Source: Clostridium thermosuccinogenes (GTDB lineage: Bacteria > Bacillota > Clostridia > Acetivibrionales > DSM-5807). From it: 64,000 nucleotides of DNA. Positions 37,173 to 47,578 of this stretch are shown piece by piece. The stretch lies in assembly GCF_002896855.1 (NCBI RefSeq), contig NZ_CP021850.1, positions 1,327,665 to 1,391,664 of the forward strand. The letters are read 5' to 3'. The translations under genes and the position numbers were made by a program. The notes beneath the pieces are model-generated. The model was not told where the DNA came from. It did no database searches and saw only the letters and a program-made list of their open reading frames with translations. Position 1 is the first letter of the stretch; each line of letters begins with the position of its first letter.

Positions 37173-37189
37173 GTTAAAGGGTGCGGATT

Positions 37190-38203
37190 ATGGATTTTTC
37201 CTATCCAAAAGTTACAATAACGGATATTGCAAATAAAGCAAATGTTTCCATTACAACAGTTTCAAGGGTATTGAACGGAAACCCGGCGGTAAGCAAAAAA
37301 ACCCGTAAGAAGGTAGAAAAGATAATCGAGGAGATGGGTTATATCCCCAATGCACTGGCACGGGGGCTTGTTAACAACTCCAGCAATACCATAGGCCTTA
37401 TTGTGTCAGATATTACCAACAGCTTCTTTGCGGATGTGATACAAGGAATAGAAAGCGTGCTGAGTTCTTACGGAATATCGGTTTTTCTTTGCAACACCGG
37501 GTATTCCCGGGAAAAAGAGGATTCGTATATACTGCAGATGCTGAGCAAAAGAGTTGACGGATTGATCATATTCAGTACTTATGCAAATCATGAGGATACC
37601 ATAAGAAAAGCAAAGGAAATTGTTCCGATAGTCACAGTACAGTCATCTTTTGATGGCGTGGATTGCATCAACACCACCGATGAAAAGGGAGCTTATGATG
37701 CAGTAAGCTATATGATCAAATGCGGTCACAAACATATCGCCTTTTTGACATATGGCTATGACAATACCACCATCCTTGATCGGAAGAAAGGCTATATCAG
37801 GGCGTTGGAAGACAACGGCATACCGGTGGATGAGAAGTTGATTATTTCTTCCGAGTTCAAGCCGAACTGTGGATATCACATGACCCAGGAGCTTCTGGAC
37901 AAAGCTCCTTATGTAACGGCAATCTTTGCATATAATGATCAGATAGCCCTGGGGGTTTACCTTTGCTTGCAGAAAAGAGGCCTCAGAATACCGGAGGATA
38001 TTTCAGTGGTTGGCTATGACGATACAGAGCTTGCAACGCTTGTAAACCCTTCTTTAACCACTGTGGGACAGCCACGAAAAGAGATGGGTACAAGTGCCGC
38101 AGAGCTGCTGGTAAAAAGAATACGGGAGCGCAAGAGCTTTATACCCCAGACGGTTCTGCTGCCGACGACGCTGATTGAAAGAGAATCGGTAAGGAAACTC
38201 TAA
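37190..38203 (+). CDS. LacI family transcriptional regulator of the inositol operon
   Basis: A 337-residue repressor: N-terminal helix-turn-helix VTITDIANKANVSITTVSRV with hinge helix NALARGL, then a periplasmic-binding-protein-like sensor domain (about residues 60-335). It lies directly upstream of the gap-like to iolD operon in the same direction and is the obvious candidate regulator; operator-like sites flank its start. ATG 37190 has aaaggg eight bases upstream; the GTG at 37181 is part of that site. The effector is probably inositol or a pathway intermediate (inference). Confidence 0.87.
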   Translation: MDFSYPKVTITDIANKANVSITTVSRVLNGNPAVSKKTRKKVEKIIEEMGYIPNALARGLVNNSSNTIGLIVSDITNSFFADVIQGIESVLSSYGISVFLCNTGYSREKEDSYILQMLSKRVDGLIIFSTYANHEDTIRKAKEIVPIVTVQSSFDGVDCINTTDEKGAYDAVSYMIKCGHKHIAFLTYGYDNTTILDRKKGYIRALEDNGIPVDEKLIISSEFKPNCGYHMTQELLDKAPYVTAIFAYNDQIALGVYLCLQKRGLRIPEDISVVGYDDTELATLVNPSLTTVGQPRKEMGTSAAELLVKRIRERKSFIPQTVLLPTTLIERESVRKL

Positions 38204-38431: not shown

Positions 38432-39454
38432 ATGGTAAAGGTTGGAGTGGCCGGATATGGTGTAATAGGCCAAAGATTAGCTGATGGAGTAGCTCTGCAA
38501 AAGGATATGGAGTTAGTTGGTGTGGCAGACATAGCACCAACCCTTGCTGTAAGAGCATTAAAGGAAAAGGGGATGCCTTACAAATTCTACAACTCTCTGC
38601 CGGAAAACCAAAAGCTTCTTGAGGATGCAGGAATCCCGGTTTCAGGAACACTGGAAGACCTGGTACAGCAGGTTGACATTATGCTGGATGCAACCAGTGC
38701 CGGGATTGGTGCAAAAAATAAGGAAATCTACGCTAAATACAATAAGAAAGCTATTTTCCAGGGAGGAGAGAAAAACAGCGTAGCGGATGTATTCTTCCAT
38801 GGGTATGCTAACTATGAAAAAGGTGTAGGAAAGCAATTTCTCAAGCTGACTTCCTGCAATACCACCGGCTTGATCCGGGCGGTTGACTGTCTTGACAGAG
38901 TTGTTGGAATAGAAAAAGTTGCCATCACGATAATCAGGCGTGTCGCAGACCCCGGAGACTACCATAGGGGACTTACAAATGCACTTCAGATAGACAAGGC
39001 TCCTAACCACCAGGCAGTGGATCTGATGACCATAATGCCTCATATCAATGCTACGGGAATACTGGTACATACACCGGTGACCCATGGACACATTATTACT
39101 GTTGTAGCAACACCAAAGAAAAAAATCTCAAAAGATGAGGTGCTCAAGGCCTTCAATTCCCATGACAGAATAAGGGTTGTCAGGATAGCCGACGGTTTCC
39201 TTGGAAATGCATCCTTGTTCAGATATGCAAGGGACCTTGGAAATCCGAGGGGAGATATGTATGAGATAGCTATCTGGGAGGAATCAATAGTAGAATCCGG
39301 CAATGATATCATGTTTGCAATAAATATACCACAGGAATCGGTTGTTATACCGGAAACCATGGATGCTATCAGGGCAGCTATGGAAATGCAGACTAACGGG
39401 GCGGAAGGTGTCGCCATCACAAATAAATATCTGGGGATGGGAAAATGGAAGTAA
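38432..39454 (+). CDS. Type II (archaeal-type) glyceraldehyde-3-phosphate dehydrogenase homologue
   Basis: A 340-residue phosphorylating aldehyde dehydrogenase of the archaeal GAPDH type, rare in bacteria. Rossmann start VGVAGYGVIGQRLADG; catalytic Cys142 in SCNTTGL; His218/His220 in VTHGHI; RRVADP at 169-174. In archaeal GAPDH, as I recall it, the substrate loop reads SHHGPD; here it is NHQAVD (192-197), and the RRGADP Gly is Val, so the substrate may not be glyceraldehyde-3-phosphate. It heads the operon, overlaps the PGK-like gene by 10 bases, and has a perfect aaaggaggag site. I infer possible oxidation of an inositol-derived aldehyde to an acyl phosphate; ordinary GAPDH activity remains the alternative. 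Confidence 0.85.
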   Translation: MVKVGVAGYGVIGQRLADGVALQKDMELVGVADIAPTLAVRALKEKGMPYKFYNSLPENQKLLEDAGIPVSGTLEDLVQQVDIMLDATSAGIGAKNKEIYAKYNKKAIFQGGEKNSVADVFFHGYANYEKGVGKQFLKLTSCNTTGLIRAVDCLDRVVGIEKVAITIIRRVADPGDYHRGLTNALQIDKAPNHQAVDLMTIMPHINATGILVHTPVTHGHIITVVATPKKKISKDEVLKAFNSHDRIRVVRIADGFLGNASLFRYARDLGNPRGDMYEIAIWEESIVESGNDIMFAINIPQESVVIPETMDAIRAAMEMQTNGAEGVAITNKYLGMGKWK

Positions 39455-40707
39455 AAACAGATATCGGAATGAAATCCATGCGCGATTTCAATTATAGCGG
39501 AAAAACAGTGTTGCTGAGGGTGGATATAAATTCACCCTTGGACCCTGTGACAAAGAGGATTGTCAACACCAACAGAATTGACATGAGTCTTCCAACCATA
39601 AAATATATTCTGGATCAGAATGCCAAGCTTGCGATAATTGCTCATCAGGGTGACACTTTGGATTACCAGAACCTGATACCAATGGAAGAACATGCACAGA
39701 TCCTTAGCCAAAAGCTGGGAAGAGAGATAAAGTACATTGATGATGTTGCCGGTCCGGCAGCAAAGCAGGCGGTAAAAGATTTAAAGCCCGGAGAGGCTAT
39801 ACTACTGGGTAATCTAAGATATCTTACAGAAGAAATATCCACCTTTGAGGATGCGGTAAAATTAAAACCGGAAGAAATGCTAAATACATATCTTGTACGC
39901 AATCTAGCCCCATTGATGGATTTCTATGTAAATGATGCTTTTGCTGCAGCTCACAGAAATGCTCCCTCCATGGTTGCTTTCCAGGAGATATTGCCAACAG
40001 CGGCAGGAGATCTCATGGTGAAAGAGATAACTGCCCTCACCAGGGTTATGGAATGTCCGGAAAAGCCATCCATTTTCGTACTGGGTGGAGCAAAAATATC
40101 CGATGCTTTTGGTATGATGAAGCAGGTTTTAATGAACGGAACTGCCGATAAGATTTTGGCATGCGGCGTTACCGGTATTACGATGCTCATGGCTAAAGGT
40201 TATTCTGTAGGCGCTGCCAATGAAAAATTCATAAAGGACAGGTCCCTGGATGTTTTCATAAAGCCGGCTATGGAGTATTTAAGGGATTATCCTGAAAAAA
40301 TCGTTTACCCGGTGGATCTTGCTTACGAAAAAGACGGACAGAGGGTCGAGGTCGATATTGAGGATCTCCCTGTGAACGAACTTACTATGGATATAGGAAA
40401 AAAGACAATAGAAATGTTTAAAGCAGAAATATCCAAGGCAGGCACCATCTTTGTGAACGGTCCGGCCGGAGTATACGAGAACAAGCTTTTTGAAACGGGA
40501 ACCCGGGAGATATGGAGTGCCATCGCCGATTCAAAAGGCTACTCTGTGATAGGCGGGGGAGATACCGTAAGCGCAGCCCAAAGGTTTATTGATACGAGCA
40601 AAATAAACTATGTATGTACTGCCGGGGGAGCGATGGTAAGGTTTTTGTCGGGCAAGCAGCTTCCATTAATTGAAGCTATGAGAAAAGCAGCAAGAAAGGA
40701 TGTTTAA
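39445..40707 (+). CDS. Archaeal-type phosphoglycerate kinase homologue
   Basis: A 420-residue two-domain PGK-fold kinase. Nucleotide-domain motifs are intact (FVLGGAKISD near 211, IFVNGPAGVYE near 335, GGGDT 370-374). In the substrate domain RVDINSP (25-31), Arg44, Arg125 and Arg171 match PGK, but the HxGR element is His67-Gln-Gly-Asp70: the Arg that helps bind 3-phosphoglycerate is Asp. This suggests it forms ATP from a different acyl phosphate, made by the adjacent dehydrogenase. The two genes overlap by 10 bases. If the motif change is tolerated it could still be a normal PGK. Confidence 0.85.
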   Translation: MEVKTDIGMKSMRDFNYSGKTVLLRVDINSPLDPVTKRIVNTNRIDMSLPTIKYILDQNAKLAIIAHQGDTLDYQNLIPMEEHAQILSQKLGREIKYIDDVAGPAAKQAVKDLKPGEAILLGNLRYLTEEISTFEDAVKLKPEEMLNTYLVRNLAPLMDFYVNDAFAAAHRNAPSMVAFQEILPTAAGDLMVKEITALTRVMECPEKPSIFVLGGAKISDAFGMMKQVLMNGTADKILACGVTGITMLMAKGYSVGAANEKFIKDRSLDVFIKPAMEYLRDYPEKIVYPVDLAYEKDGQRVEVDIEDLPVNELTMDIGKKTIEMFKAEISKAGTIFVNGPAGVYENKLFETGTREIWSAIADSKGYSVIGGGDTVSAAQRFIDTSKINYVCTAGGAMVRFLSGKQLPLIEAMRKAARKDV

Positions 40708-40741: not shown

Positions 40742-41590
40742 ATGTTAAGCAAACAGGAGATAAAAGAACTGGAAATATTGGCACTAAAAATAAGGATAGA
40801 AACCATCCGGGAAATAGGCACACTGGGCTTTGGGCATCTTGGCGGTGCGATGTCCATTGTTGAGACTCTGGCAGTGTTATATGGCAAGGTTATGAATGTA
40901 GATCCCAAAAATCCCCGTTGGGAGGACAGGGATTGGTTAGTCTGCTCTAAAGGGCATGCAGGGCCGGCAGTATATGCCGCCCTGGCCATTAAAGGCTACT
41001 TCCCTATGGAAGAATTGAAAACCTTGAACAAACCAGGGACCCGTTTACCGAGCCATTGCGACAGAAACCTGACCGTTGGTATAGATATGACTACCGGATC
41101 TTTGGGACAGGGTGCATCCACAGCGGCAGGTATAGCACTGGGAAACCGTTTGAGCGGTAGGGACAGCAAAACATACCTCATATTGGGAGACGGTGAAATC
41201 CAGGAAGGCCAGGTTTGGGAAATGGCTTCCTTTGCAGCTCACCGGAAGCTGGACAACCTGATAGCCTTCGTCGACAATAACAAAAAGCAGCTGGATGGTT
41301 ACACAAAGGACATCAACGACCCGAGGGACATCAGGGCGAAATTTGAAAGCTTCGGATGGTATGCCCAGGATGCGGATGGCAAGTGTGTAGCCAGCATATA
41401 CGAAGCTATAGAGCGAGCCAGGAATACAAAGGGAAAGCCTTCGGTTATTGTTCTGGACACGATAAAAGGACAGGGATGCAGTTTTGCAGAGAATCTTCTG
41501 TTCAACCACCATATAGAAATCAGTGAAAGTCAAATGAAAGAAGCGATTGAGGAGCTGGAGAAAAAACTGGAGAAGGTGGTGAGCTTATGA
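40742..41590 (+). CDS. Transketolase N-terminal (thiamine diphosphate-binding) subunit
   Basis: A 282-residue stand-alone N-terminal half of a split transketolase. FGHLGGAMSIVE, SKGHAGPAVYAAL, TGSLGQGASTAAGIAL and the TPP/metal motif GDGEIQEGQVWEMASFAAH are clear. The pattern DGHD usual after FGW is changed to ADGKC. It must pair with the next gene's product, which starts 4 bases before its stop. Transfers two-carbon ketol units from ketoses to aldoses. In this operon the likely donor is an inositol breakdown product (inference). Confidence 0.92.
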   Translation: MLSKQEIKELEILALKIRIETIREIGTLGFGHLGGAMSIVETLAVLYGKVMNVDPKNPRWEDRDWLVCSKGHAGPAVYAALAIKGYFPMEELKTLNKPGTRLPSHCDRNLTVGIDMTTGSLGQGASTAAGIALGNRLSGRDSKTYLILGDGEIQEGQVWEMASFAAHRKLDNLIAFVDNNKKQLDGYTKDINDPRDIRAKFESFGWYAQDADGKCVASIYEAIERARNTKGKPSVIVLDTIKGQGCSFAENLLFNHHIEISESQMKEAIEELEKKLEKVVSL

Positions 41591-42564
41591 AGGCAATTAT
41601 CGCAGCAAACAAGGTAAAAGAGAGTATTGAAATGAGAAAAGCTTACTGTGACGCATTGATGGAGCTGGCCGCAAAGGATGACAGGATTGTGGCGCTGGAT
41701 GCGGATTTGATGAATTCCATGGGAATGATGCCGTTTTTGAAAGCATTTCCGGACAGAGCCATCGATGTTGGAATACAGGAAGCCAATATGATAGGGGTGG
41801 CAGCAGGTCTTTCAGCCACCGGAAAGGTGCCTTTTGCTCATAGTTTCGGACCTTTTGCTTCCAGAAGATGCTATGATCAGATATTTCTTTCATGTGGTTA
41901 TGCCAAGCTCAATGTCAAAATAATCGGAAGCGACCCGGGGATTACCGCTGCGTTCAATGGAGGAACCCACATGCCTTTTGAAGATATGGGAATCCTTCGC
42001 AATGTACCGGGAATAACCATCATGGAGCCTACCGACTCAATGATGCTAAAGGACATTATACGGCAGGTGGCCGATATATACGGTGTCTTCTACATAAGGC
42101 TTTTAAGGAAAAATGCCCTGGGCATATATGAAGAAGGCTCAACTTTTGAAATAGGAAAGGGAATACAGTTAAGAGACGGTAAAGATGTAACCATATTTGC
42201 CATGGGCTACATGGTAGGTGAATCCCTTAAGGCGGCTGATATGCTGGAAAAAGAGGGGATTTCTGCCAGGGTGGTGGATATGTTTACCCTAAAGCCCATA
42301 GATGTGGAAATGATAGTAAAATGCGCCCGGGAGACCGGAGCGGTTGTTACTGCAGAGAACCACAGCATAATAAATGGCTTGGGTTCTGCTGTAGCTGAAG
42401 TCCTGGCGGAGAATTGCCCGACTCCCATGGAAAGGATAGGTTCAAGGGACAGGTTTGGCCAGGTGGGTCCGGTCGATTATCTCGCCAAAGAGTATAACAT
42501 GACTCCGGAAGATATTGCTGAAAAATGCAGGAAAGTGATTACAAGAAAACAGGGAGGGTGTTGA
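41587..42564 (+). CDS. Transketolase C-terminal subunit
   Basis: A 325-residue partner carrying the pyrimidine-binding and C-terminal domains. ALDADLMNS, the catalytic Glu65 in GIQEANMIGVAAGL and the ED-LR element are present. The acceptor-site motif normally DGxTHQ with Asp is Asn124-Gly-Gly-Thr-His-Met, and the His of the THD/HAG segment is replaced (GSDPG, 114-118); these positions contact the sugar hydroxyl and phosphate in known transketolases. ATGA overlap with the N subunit shows coupled translation. Substrate preference is therefore probably unusual. Confidence 0.9.
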   Translation: MKAIIAANKVKESIEMRKAYCDALMELAAKDDRIVALDADLMNSMGMMPFLKAFPDRAIDVGIQEANMIGVAAGLSATGKVPFAHSFGPFASRRCYDQIFLSCGYAKLNVKIIGSDPGITAAFNGGTHMPFEDMGILRNVPGITIMEPTDSMMLKDIIRQVADIYGVFYIRLLRKNALGIYEEGSTFEIGKGIQLRDGKDVTIFAMGYMVGESLKAADMLEKEGISARVVDMFTLKPIDVEMIVKCARETGAVVTAENHSIINGLGSAVAEVLAENCPTPMERIGSRDRFGQVGPVDYLAKEYNMTPEDIAEKCRKVITRKQGGC

Positions 42565-42565
42565 A

Positions 42566-43363
42566 TTGATTCATATAAGGCCTGATAGGGAGTTTTCGAT
42601 AGGATATAATCCAATAACAACAATTGATGAAAAAGAAGACAACACAATGATGGACTTTGGCATATTGCTCATGAGCAAGGGTATGGTGGAAACCAGTTCA
42701 GAAGGCAAGGAAAGAGCTTATCTGCTTCTCAAAGGCGAGGTCGTGCTCAACTGGGAAGGAAACAAAGTCACGGTAAGAAGAGATTCGTTCTTTGATGAAA
42801 ACCCCTGGTGTCTTCATGTGCCCAAGGATGTGGAGGTAAGCATTGAATGCCTCAGGGATGGTACTGAAATTGCGATAACAAAGACATATAACGATAAAAT
42901 CTTTACGCCGAAGCTATATACGAAGGAGGAATGCAGGAGCGAACTCCGGGGTGAAGGCACGATGGGAGAAACATCTACCCGAATAGTGAGGACAATATTT
43001 GATATAACAAATTCCGGTGATTCGAACCTTGTCCTGGGGGAAGTAATAAATTTCCCGGGAAGATGGTCCAGCTACCCACCTCATCATCATCCCCAGCCAG
43101 AGATTTATTTTTATAGATTCAATCCCGAAAATGGATATGGTTTTGCTCAACTGGGCGAAGATGTTGTCATGGTAAAGAACAACGATACCATCAAGATTCT
43201 CAACGATGCCAGCCATCCCCAGGTGACCGCACCGGGCTATGCGATGTTCTATATATGGGCTATTCGCCATTTGGACGGCAATCCTTATATAATACCCACA
43301 TTTGAGCCGGAACACCTCTGGGTGACCGACAAGAATGCGAAATTCTGGCCTGACAGCAAATAG
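42566..43363 (+). CDS. iolB: 5-deoxy-glucuronate isomerase
   Basis: A 265-residue double-cupin isomerase of inositol breakdown; converts 5-deoxy-D-glucuronate to 5-dehydro-2-deoxy-D-gluconate. The metal-binding HHHPQPE (173-179) and the FNPENGYGFAQLG region are typical of IolB. TTG start with agggaggg seven bases upstream, one base after the transketolase stop, so it is part of the same transcript. Its product has a ketose end (CH2OH-CO-CHOH) suited to a transketolase. Confidence 0.93.
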   Translation: MIHIRPDREFSIGYNPITTIDEKEDNTMMDFGILLMSKGMVETSSEGKERAYLLLKGEVVLNWEGNKVTVRRDSFFDENPWCLHVPKDVEVSIECLRDGTEIAITKTYNDKIFTPKLYTKEECRSELRGEGTMGETSTRIVRTIFDITNSGDSNLVLGEVINFPGRWSSYPPHHHPQPEIYFYRFNPENGYGFAQLGEDVVMVKNNDTIKILNDASHPQVTAPGYAMFYIWAIRHLDGNPYIIPTFEPEHLWVTDKNAKFWPDSK

Positions 43364-43471: not shown

Positions 43472-45406
43472 ATGAAAACCATACGATTGACGATGGCACA
43501 GGCCTTAGTGAAATTCCTGGATAATCAGTATGTGGAGTTTGACGGAGTGCAGCATAAATTCGTAAAAGGTATATTTACGGTATTTGGACATGGAAATGTA
43601 CTGGGATTGGGTCAGGCTCTGGAACAGGACCCGGGTGAACTGGTGGTGCATCAGGCACGCAATGAGCAGGGAATGAGCCATGTGGCAGCAGGATATGCAA
43701 AGCAGAAGCTTAGGAAGCAAATCTATGCATGCACCTCTTCCGTCGGACCAGGCGCCGCCAATATGGTTACAGCAGCAGCAACCGCCACTGCAAACCGCAT
43801 TCCTGTGTTATTCCTCCCGGGTGATACTTACGCATCCAGGCAGCCCGACCCTGTGCTGCAGCAGATTGAGCACTTTCATGATATAAGCATAAGCACCAAT
43901 GATGCTTTCAAGGCAGTCAGCAAGTACTGGGATAGGATAAACCGTCCGGAGCAGCTGATGAGCGCTATGCTTAATGCCATGAGAGTTCTGACCGACCCTG
44001 CAGATACTGGAGCCGTAACAATTGCGCTTCCCCAGGACGTACAGGCAGAGGCCTATGACTATCCCGTAGAATTTTTCAAAAAGCGCGTTCACAGGATAGA
44101 AAGAAGACCTCCTACAAAGGAAATGATAAACGATGCCGTTAATCTGATCAGGACTAAGAAGAAGCCTATCCTGATATGCGGAGGAGGAGTAAGGTATTCG
44201 GAAGCTTCGGAAACCTTCCGGGCTTTTGCAGAAAAATATAACATACCTTTTGGAGAGACTCAGGCTGGAAAGAGCGCCATACCATGGGATCATGAATTAA
44301 ACCTGGGCGGAATCGGTGCGACCGGTAACCTGGCTGCCAATATGATTGCCCGGGAAGCAGATCTGGTCATCGGTGTAGGCACCAGGTATACGGACTTCAC
44401 AACCTCATCCAAATGGTTGTTCCAGAATGAGAACGTAGAATTTGTCAATATAAATGTCGCTGAATTTGATGCCTATAAGCTGGATGCCGTCAAGGTTGTC
44501 GCCGATGCAAAGGTTGCGTTGGAGGCATTGATGCAAGAGCTGGACAAAGTCGGCTACAAATCGGCCTATACCAATGAAATCAAGGAAGCTAAGGATAAAT
44601 GGGCTGAAGAACTTAAGAGGCTTGATACTCTGCAATATACGGGCAAAGGCTTTAAACCCGAGATAGCAGGTCATATCGACCATGTCCTGGAAGAATTCGG
44701 TGAGGCAACCGGTTCATATCTGACGCAGACAAGGGTTTTGGGCATTTTGAATGAGATTTTGGATAACGATGCCATCGTAGTCGGCTCTTCCGGAAGTCTG
44801 CCCGGAGATATGCAAAGGGTTTGGAGGGCAAAAGCTCCGGAAACCTATCATATGGAATACGGTTACTCATGCATGGGCTATGAGATCAATGCAGCATTGG
44901 GAGCCAAGCTGGCATGTCCGGACAAGGAAGTATACGCAATGGTGGGTGACGGCTCTTATATGATGCTCCACTCGGAACTGCCTACCTCCATACAGGAGAG
45001 GAAAAAAATCAACGTTGTCGTCTTTGACAATATGTCCTTTGGGTGCATTAACAACCTACAGATGGGCCACGGCATGGGAAGCTTCGGTACTGAGTTCAGA
45101 TACCGCAACCCTGAGACAGGAAAGCTGGACGGTGACCTGATTTACATTGATTTTGCAAAGAATGCGGAAGGATATGGATGTAAAACCTATACGGTCAGAA
45201 CCGAAGAAGAATTAAGGGCTGCGGTGGAGGATGCAAAGAAGCAAACTGTTTCCACTCTTATAGACATCAAGGTTCTGCCCAAGACCATGACCCATGACTA
45301 TGAGTCCTGGTGGAGAGTCGGAAGTGCCGAAGTGGCTGAGAAAGAAAGCGTTTTGAGTGCAACCAGGAGAGTTAAAAAGGAATTGGAGAAAGCCAGAAAA
45401 TACTGA
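43472..45406 (+). CDS. iolD: 3D-(3,5/4)-trihydroxycyclohexane-1,2-dione hydrolase
   Basis: A 644-residue thiamine diphosphate enzyme that opens the inositol ring to give 5-deoxy-glucuronate. The catalytic Glu65 lies in ARNEQGM and the TPP-Mg motif begins GDGSYMM (Asp493) with [11 protein letters not shown]. Length and start ([15 protein letters not shown]) match IolD. aaaggaggt precedes the ATG. A 108-base gap containing a small inverted repeat (gttggc-act-gccaac) separates it from iolB. Followed by a terminator. Confidence 0.96.
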
Positions 45407-45648: not shown

Positions 45649-46545
45649 ATGTTTGATAGGAACAAGGTAAAGCTTGGTATAGCCCCTATTGCCTGGACCA
45701 ATGACGATATGCCGGAATTGGGTGCGGAAAACACCTTTGAGCAATGCATCAGCGAGATGGCTTTGGCAGGATATACAGGGAGCGAGATCGGAAACAAATA
45801 TCCCAAGGACCCGGAAGTATTAAAGAAAGCCTTGGATTTAAGAAACTTGACTATCTGCAATACCTGGTTCAGTGCTTTTCTGACAACAAAACCCCTGGAG
45901 GAAACCGTGGAGGCTTTTATAAAGCAAAGGGATTTTCTGTATGAGTTGGGAGCAAGGGTCATAGGCGTAGCAGAGCAGGGACACAGCATACAGGGCATGA
46001 TGGATGTGCCTGTTATGGCGAATAAGCCGGTATTTACGGACGAAGAATGGGAAAGACTTGCGGCAGGCTTGAATGAACTGGGCCGCCTTGCTGCTGAAAA
46101 GGATATGGTGGTGGCGTACCATCATCATATGGGTACAGGAGTACAGACCTTTGAAGAAATAGACAGGCTCATGGAAATGACGGACCCCAGGCTGGTATAT
46201 TTGCTTTTCGACACAGGACATCTGACGTTTTCAGGGGTGAATCCGCAAGAAGTCCTCAAAAAATATGTGCATAGGATTAAGCATGTACACCTGAAGGATA
46301 TCCGAAAAGACGTGCTGGACAGGGTGGGCAAAGAAAATATGAGCTTCCTGCAGGCAGTAAGGGAAGGAGTATTTACTGTTCCCGGAGATGGTATGATAGA
46401 TTTTGTTCCGCTGTTTAAAATACTGGCTGAAAATAATTATGAAGGCTGGTTTGTGGTAGAGGCTGAGCAGGATCCGGCCAAAGCAAATCCTCTGGAATAT
46501 GCAATCAAGGCAAGAAAATATATAAGGGAAAAAACAGGACTGTAA
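45649..46545 (+). CDS. iolE: Inosose dehydratase
   Basis: A 298-residue TIM-barrel metalloenzyme (xylose-isomerase-like) that dehydrates scyllo-inosose to 3D-(3,5/4)-trihydroxycyclohexane-1,2-dione, the IolD substrate. [46 protein letters not shown] and HVHLKDIR are IolE signatures with the barrel's metal ligands. It precedes iolG by a short gap, so they are cotranscribed. tgggagga upstream of the ATG. Confidence 0.95.
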
Positions 46546-46567
46546 ATTTTGAATGGGGGTTTATGGA

Positions 46568-47578
46568 ATGGAAAAGAAAATTACGATTGGTATAATCGGG
46601 GCAGGAAGAATCGGTAAACTTCATGCGGAAAATATAGCCAATAATTTTAAATATGTAGAAATCAAAACCATATCCGATCTTTATGCCGATAAGATAGCTG
46701 ATTGGGCAAAAAGCCTGGGTGTTAAGAATGTATGCAGTGATTACAAGGAAATCATAAATGATCCGGAGATTGACGCTGTTCTGGTGTGCTCGTCCACCAA
46801 TACCCATTCCCAGATATCCTACGAGGCTGCGAAAGCAGGAAAACACATTTTCTGCGAGAAGCCTATAGATTATGATATTGACAGGATAAAAAAGGTTATG
46901 GAAGCAGTGGATGAAGCTGGAGTAAAGTTCCAGGTAGGCTTTAACCGCAGGTTTGATCACAATTTCAAAAGGGTGCGGGAGCTGGTGAAAGAAGGTAAGA
47001 TCGGAGAGCCCCATATAATAAAGATAACTTCCAGAGATCCGGAACCACCTCCGATAGAATATGTAAAAGTATCCGGAGGTATGATGCTGGATATGACAAT
47101 CCATGACTTTGACATGGCCAGATACCTCTCGGGAAGTGAAGTGACGGAAGTTTATACCTCTGCTGCCGTGCTGGTGGACCCGGAAATAGGAAAGGCAGGG
47201 GACGTAGATACGGCAGTCATAACCTTGAAATTTAAGAACGGAGCAATAGGCGTGATCGACAACAGCAGAAAAGCAGCGTATGGATACGACCAAAGGGTGG
47301 AAGTTTTCGGCTCCAAGGGTGGAATAACCGTTTCCAATGATACCCCCAGCTCTGCAGTTCTGAGCACAAGCGAAGGCGTATTTAGTGATAAGCCAAAATA
47401 CTTCTTCCTGGAAAGGTACAAAGATTCATTTATTGAAGAACTCAGAGACTTCTTTGATGCTGTGCTCAATGACAAACCGACTCCGGTGACTGCAATCGAC
47501 GGTTTAAAGCCGGTAATTATAGGGTTGGCGGCTATGGAGTCATATAAAACAGGAAAGCCTGTTAAGATAGAAGAATAG
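46568..47578 (+). CDS. iolG: myo-Inositol 2-dehydrogenase
   Basis: A 336-residue Gfo/Idh/MocA oxidoreductase: NAD-binding GIIGAGRIGKLHAENI, the catalytic EKP at the domain boundary (FCEKPID), VGFNRRFD and DMTIHDFDMARYL with the proton-relay Asp/His. It oxidises myo-inositol to scyllo-inosose, the first step of the pathway. ATG 46568 has gggggt eight bases upstream; ATG 46553 is the alternative. Assignment as IolG rather than another sugar dehydrogenase rests on iolE beside it. Confidence 0.92.
   Translation: MEKKITIGIIGAGRIGKLHAENIANNFKYVEIKTISDLYADKIADWAKSLGVKNVCSDYKEIINDPEIDAVLVCSSTNTHSQISYEAAKAGKHIFCEKPIDYDIDRIKKVMEAVDEAGVKFQVGFNRRFDHNFKRVRELVKEGKIGEPHIIKITSRDPEPPPIEYVKVSGGMMLDMTIHDFDMARYLSGSEVTEVYTSAAVLVDPEIGKAGDVDTAVITLKFKNGAIGVIDNSRKAAYGYDQRVEVFGSKGGITVSNDTPSSAVLSTSEGVFSDKPKYFFLERYKDSFIEELRDFFDAVLNDKPTPVTAIDGLKPVIIGLAAMESYKTGKPVKIEE

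Follow-up and report, generated by a model that had tools for sequence, protein, structure and literature searches.

A phosphoglycerate kinase homologue in an inositol-type gene cluster

The stretch analysed here (the window) comprises 64,000 nucleotides of the single 4.73-Mb contig that makes up the genome of Clostridium thermosuccinogenes. Within it, the forward-strand open reading frame at 39445..40707 has exact boundaries, begins with ATG and encodes a 420-amino-acid homologue of phosphoglycerate kinase (PGK), which scores 374.6 bits (cut-off 27) with Pfam PGK (PF00162) over the full model. Its start overlaps by 10 bases the gene for a type II glyceraldehyde-3-phosphate dehydrogenase (GAPDH). 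A LacI-type regulator lies 5' of this pair, and genes for a split transketolase (TK), IolB, IolD, IolE and IolG follow 3' of the PGK homologue. The features are as follows:

37181..38203, + strand: LacI-family regulator, probably of the cluster (Pfam LacI and Peripla_BP; a 61% identical copy adjoins the cluster in locus L059)
38432..39454, + strand: type II (archaeal-type) GAPDH homologue, proposed phosphorylating malic-semialdehyde dehydrogenase (NF003251, TIGR01546)
39445..40707, + strand: PGK homologue with HQGD replacing HxGR, proposed D-malyl-phosphate:ADP phosphotransferase (malate kinase) (Pfam PGK, Arg65 to Asp in homologues, AF2 model)
39640..39666, + strand: coding sequence of the AHQGDTLDY block, the subfamily's invariant signature (homologue alignment; genome position C1:1367304-1367330)
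40742..41590, + strand: split transketolase, N-terminal (TPP) subunit, proposed substrate 2-deoxy-5-keto-D-gluconate (Pfam Transketolase_N; order conserved in 20/32 loci)
41587..42564, + strand: split transketolase, C-terminal subunit, donor-phosphate His changed to Asp (GSDPG) (best PDB match split TK 6yaj)
42566..43363, + strand: divergent IolB-like 5-deoxy-glucuronate isomerase (KduI/IolB Pfam, 184 bits)
43472..45406, + strand: IolD, 3D-(3,5/4)-trihydroxycyclohexane-1,2-dione acylhydrolase (TIGR04377, 995.5 bits, cut-off 715)
45649..46545, + strand: IolE, myo-inosose-2 dehydratase (TIGR04379, 438.7 bits, cut-off 290)
46553..47578, + strand: IolG, inositol 2-dehydrogenase (TIGR04380, 492.4 bits, cut-off 355)

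The IolB-like protein reaches 102.9 bits with TIGR04378, under the cut-off of 205, which we counted against the inositol route proposed below. The GAPDH, PGK and TK homologues are currently annotated as glycolytic or pentose-phosphate enzymes.

An acidic residue at the 3-phosphoglycerate site

In human numbering, PGK holds the 3-phosphate of 3-phosphoglycerate (3PG) with Arg65, Arg122 and Arg170 and the bridging oxygen with His62; when the human enzyme closes, Arg65 also forms a pair with Asp218 (PMC7729029). The preliminary description had read the HxGR element of the window's protein as His67-Gln-Gly-Asp70, and both translation and alignment bear this out: the motif is Ala66-His67-Gln68-Gly69-Asp70-Thr71, with Asp70 at the position of Arg65, leaving the three-arginine phosphate patch incomplete, with Arg125 and Arg171 still in place. 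The protein retains Asp27, Asn29, Arg44, Arg125, Arg171 and Lys217 (human Asp23, Asn25, Arg38, Arg122, Arg170 and Lys215) together with the equivalent of His62, and hence both the catalytic lysine (Lys217) and the catalytic arginine (Arg44). The conservation earlier claimed for Arg44, Arg125 and Arg171 stands, but that claimed for the whole nucleotide domain does not, as STGGGA has become CTAGGA and NGPMG has become NGPAG. The change to CTAGGA includes the replacement of Gly394 by Ala, at a position that is Gly in all 30 ordinary PGKs compared.

An AlphaFold (AF2) model built with 17 homologues as input (pLDDT 86.9, pTM 0.84) returned only PGKs as best Foldseek matches, led by that of Pyrococcus horikoshii (2cun; TM 0.85-0.88, 39% identity). 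Three features count against the malate-kinase reading developed below. The equivalents of Arg122 and Arg170 persist, with which some phosphate binding may persist too; the equivalent of Asp218 is kept; and an Asp beside a substrate carboxylate would be an unexpected ligand, for which a structural reason is needed.

The substitution is fixed in a subfamily

Ordinary Bacillota PGKs have Arg at the Arg65 position in 30 of 30 cases and Asp in none, and Lys occurs there in the PGKs of P. horikoshii and Staphylococcus aureus. The comparison with archaeal and bacterial PGKs that had been proposed as a check therefore turned up no Asp, and the Lys of P. horikoshii rules out the Asp as a feature of the archaeal lineage. 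Homologues were fetched by protein search with peptide patterns outside the Asp motif; this gave 21 close homologues from GTDB genomes (58-76% identical), all covering the site. Every one carries the Asp, and the AHQGDTLDY block around it is invariant among them. Since these homologues were retrieved independently of the motif, the Asp is a fixed subfamily feature and not noise, and a sequencing error or pseudogene is ruled out on the same grounds. Of 391 genomes in the class, 12 contained a match to a DNA pattern for AHQGDTLDY. Judged from these alignments and searches, the Asp substitution marks a sparse but widespread subfamily. Clostridium magnum and Caloramator quimbayensis are among its cultured carriers. 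Plasmid-borne copies of the PGK homologue were looked for and none was found.

Loss of Arg65 is on its own weak evidence, because true PGKs can have Lys there and the yeast R65Q enzyme is stable enough to crystallise (PDB 1qpg). The argument for a changed substrate draws on the genomic context set out below.

Parallel changes in the partner enzymes

The cluster GAPDH matches NF003251 at 422.6 bits (cut-off 185) and TIGR01546 at 320 bits (cut-off 233), and it retains the catalytic Cys motif SCNTTG. Two archaeal GAPDH motifs are changed in all cluster homologues, HHGPD to HQA[VLE]D and RGPINA to RGLTNA, the window's copy (38432-39454) reading HQAVD and RGLTNA. Our search of the open-access literature found no paper on the phosphate site of archaeal GAPDH.

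The cluster TK likewise keeps its domains (TPP and pyrimidine subunits) and the other Arg and Ser residues of the pocket. The His of SH[CA]G, which binds the donor phosphate in the human (H416) and yeast enzymes, is replaced by Asp (GSDPG or GSDAG) in 23 of 23 cluster TKs, an alignment that, like that of the 27 LarA proteins below, still includes two duplicate locus pairs. Two further split TKs encoded in this genome keep the His, as do the split TK of Carboxydothermus hydrogenoformans and human TK. TK is thus an independent second enzyme with the same trend towards loss of phosphate ligands as the PGK homologue.

The rest of the genome

A second, ordinary PGK is encoded elsewhere in the genome as a 651-residue fusion to triosephosphate isomerase (PGK-TIM) with SHLGRP (L001, G000:C1:3439752-3440885). 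Class I GAPDH is encoded twice, and one of these genes is situated about 1 kb from that of the fusion. With these enzymes present, glycolysis has no need of the cluster GAPDH-PGK pair, and the PGK homologue is ruled out as the sole or replacement glycolytic PGK.

Genome-wide searches for the conventional later steps of inositol degradation gave no recognised enzyme. For IolC (5-dehydro-2-deoxygluconokinase), the best TIGR04382 score was 201.7 bits against a cut-off of 300 and PF09863 was absent; IolA gave no TIGR01722 match; and a second class II aldolase of the IolJ type was not found, the genome having a single class II aldolase. This leaves 2-deoxy-5-keto-D-gluconate (DKG), the product of IolB, without a recognisable conventional exit. 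The genome does encode a LarA that matches the NCBIfam malate racemase family NF052593 (590.5 bits, cut-off 500) with the signature GGHK, as well as LarC (PF01969). The racemase and malic enzyme genes lie 0.65 Mb and 1.2 Mb from the cluster, outside the window, which we counted against a role for malate.

Gene context across 32 loci

Gene context was compared in 32 non-redundant loci, after removal of two duplicate pairs from the same contigs. Thirteen of them (L057-L069) had been picked with the Asp-containing AHQGDTLDY pattern and were used for context only, not for conservation of the Asp. Type II GAPDH adjoins the PGK homologue in 31 of the 32. TK is present in 20 loci. At least one Iol gene is found in 18, and 16 of those have TK as well. 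Within the fetched flanks (about 10 kb), a LarA of the malate racemase type occurs in 24 loci, malic enzyme in 14 and one or the other in 25; the 7 loci with neither, several of them on short contigs, count against malate. By the malate-racemase signature of LarA (PMC7583248, PMC11770544), all 27 linked LarA proteins, that of the present genome included, have HK and 26 have GHK. The closest PDB structure to the LarA of L008 is the malate racemase Mar2.

In ten loci the GAPDH-PGK pair occurs without TK or Iol genes, and six of these have malic enzyme, malate racemase or both. A GabT-like aminotransferase lies directly upstream of the pair in two such loci (L011:7629-8975 and L014:7612-8976), the former adjoined by malic enzyme and malate racemase, the latter ending early; this enzyme could make malic semialdehyde by transaminating 4-amino-3-hydroxybutyrate. 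What the contexts all have in common is malate rather than triose phosphate, which suggests that the pair is a general module from malic semialdehyde to malate, one that would be fed by TK in inositol degraders and perhaps by transamination elsewhere.

Other neighbours were seen at single loci or pairs of loci. In the second of the Clostridium magnum copies, a 3-hydroxyacyl-CoA dehydrogenase-like protein with weak matches to carnitine dehydrogenase (L008:12887-13834) follows the GAPDH, PGK and racemase genes and might be an additional source of malic semialdehyde. Two TK-free loci have, beside GAPDH-PGK, a gene for a protein of about 220 residues (L062:2-661 and L064:8151-8804), the L064 copy having no NCBIfam match. 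On a contig of a Negativicutes metagenome-assembled genome, IolB and IolD come directly after GAPDH-PGK without an intervening TK (L012:2173-2283), which we counted against the TK route; the transketolase of this organism may be located elsewhere.

These contexts also bear on one alternative, namely that the pair is an ordinary, redundant PGK and an ordinary type II GAPDH that pay off triose phosphate derived from inositol, the Asp being tolerated. Such a role would fit the retained fold, the conserved catalytic residues (Lys and Arg) and the two phosphate-binding arginines that are kept out of three, as well as the Lys-bearing PGKs and the foldable yeast mutant. We nevertheless judge it improbable, given an Asp that is foreign to ordinary PGKs and invariant in the subfamily, the parallel change in TK, the recurrence of malate racemase and malic enzyme nearby, and the ordinary PGK and GAPDHs already in the genome.

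A proposed route from inositol to malate

Gene content and order, residue changes and the presence or absence of other genes were read from the sequence; the substrates and products of the transketolase, GAPDH and PGK steps are all what we infer. The route would begin conventionally, with IolG, IolE, IolD and IolB converting myo-inositol to DKG. The split transketolase would then move the C2 ketol unit of DKG to a sugar phosphate and free malic semialdehyde (3-hydroxy-4-oxobutanoate), which the type II GAPDH homologue would oxidise with phosphate to 1-malyl phosphate. From this the PGK homologue would pass the acyl phosphate to ADP, yielding (R)-malate along with ATP. D-Malate would then be converted to L-malate by a nickel-dependent malate racemase, and on to pyruvate by malic enzyme; both enzymes are linked to the cluster in relatives and unlinked here.

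Established structures make such substrates plausible. Reversed in Fischer projection, DKG would read CH2OH-CO-CHOH(left)-CHOH(right)-CH2-COO-, and can thus be regarded as an isostere of D-xylulose-5-phosphate, with the same skeleton and stereochemistry and CH2-COO- in place of CH2-OPO3. Malic semialdehyde, OHC-CHOH-CH2-COO-, would in the same way be the carboxylate isostere of D-glyceraldehyde-3-phosphate. Because DKG keeps the D-threo arrangement of D-xylulose-5-phosphate, the product should be D-malate; a racemase would then be needed, and its presence would be explained. In Acinetobacter baumannii, malic semialdehyde from L-carnitine gives D-malate through an unrelated enzyme (PMC11353897).

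The same chemistry might instead act on another hydroxy-acid acyl phosphate, derived from a tartaric or other C4-C5 semialdehyde, or leading to L-malate. Malate racemases of the LarA family are weakly active on tartrate (PMC11770544), and clusters without TK or Iol genes show the pair serving more than one upstream route. The neighbouring malic enzyme, though, points to malate, and TK cleavage of DKG would give malic semialdehyde of D configuration, so that we give this variant only a small chance. Still less credible to us is the reverse direction, in which the pair would reduce malate to malic semialdehyde at the cost of ATP, as a biosynthetic step. The GAPDH and PGK families are both reversible, but the co-located genes are catabolic (IolG, IolE, IolD, IolB) or take malate to pyruvate, and nothing was seen that would draw malic semialdehyde into biosynthesis.

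The preliminary description had proposed a kinase that kept its chemistry and changed its acyl-phosphate substrate, and had only hinted at malate. Gene context and the parallel transketolase change lend support to that proposal; a changed substrate appears well supported, and malate would be the best-fitting acceptor. In our view, it is highly probable that the PGK homologue serves as a malate kinase, forming ATP, in an inositol pathway that depends on transketolase. We consider it likely that, with a phosphorylating GAPDH specific for malic semialdehyde, it forms a carboxylate counterpart of the glycolytic step that yields energy. This unit would end a TK-dependent inositol route without a sugar-acid kinase and, in relatives, further pathways that produce malic semialdehyde; it would yield D-malate and give nickel malate racemases a physiological role. 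Lacking Arg65, a defining substrate-binding residue, the protein should not be annotated as a 3-phosphoglycerate kinase.

Implications

Few enzymes of central metabolism are as conserved or as substrate-specific as PGK. If the proposal is correct, the cluster would hold a natural malate kinase, along with an inositol route that relies on transketolase and dispenses with the kinase step, and the GAPDH-PGK module would be reusable on a carboxylate isostere. Anaerobic Bacillota would have an added route of inositol fermentation that spares the ATP of the kinase, and there would be a reason for malate racemases in these bacteria, D-malate from inositol giving Mar2-type enzymes a role. The malate kinase and malic-semialdehyde dehydrogenase would also be natural versions of parts that synthetic biologists had to engineer. 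We found no description in the open-access literature of a transketolase acting on DKG, or of malic semialdehyde or malate racemase in connection with inositol; a report in a subscription journal is possible.

Comparison with known systems

The subfamily resembles PGK (EC 2.7.2.3; 2cun) in its whole fold, its length, the catalytic Lys and the equivalents of Arg38, Asp23, Asn25, His62, Arg122 and Arg170. It differs from PGK in the Asp for Arg65 within AHQGDTLDY, in CTAGGA for STGGGA, in its pairing with a type II GAPDH and in the second PGK of the cell.

With the canonical iolABCDEFGHIJ pathway and its anaerobic version in Anaerostipes (PMC8355322), the cluster has IolG, IolE, IolD and the IolB-like isomerase in common, up to DKG. 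Thereafter, homologues of transketolase, GAPDH and PGK stand here in place of IolC, an IolJ-type aldolase and IolA, which were not found. In A. baumannii, L-carnitine degradation involves a malic semialdehyde dehydrogenase (PMC11353897) with which the proposed intermediate and the D-malate product would be shared. A member of the aldehyde dehydrogenase family, that enzyme differs from the pair proposed here in forming no acyl phosphate or ATP.

An engineered malate kinase derived from the aspartate kinase LysC (PMC5481828) likewise acts as a kinase on a malate carboxylate, as we propose for the PGK homologue; the engineered enzyme spends ATP and has the 4-carboxylate of L-malate as its target, and its authors knew of no natural malate kinase. 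The cluster-linked LarA proteins match Mar2 and the GHK signature of the nickel-dependent malate racemases Mar2 and LarAH6, whose role in vivo was left open (PMC7583248). Finally, the cluster transketolase has in common with the split TK of C. hydrogenoformans (6yaj) its two-subunit build and the Arg and Ser residues of the donor-phosphate pocket, and differs from it in the pocket His, which is Asp in all cluster members.
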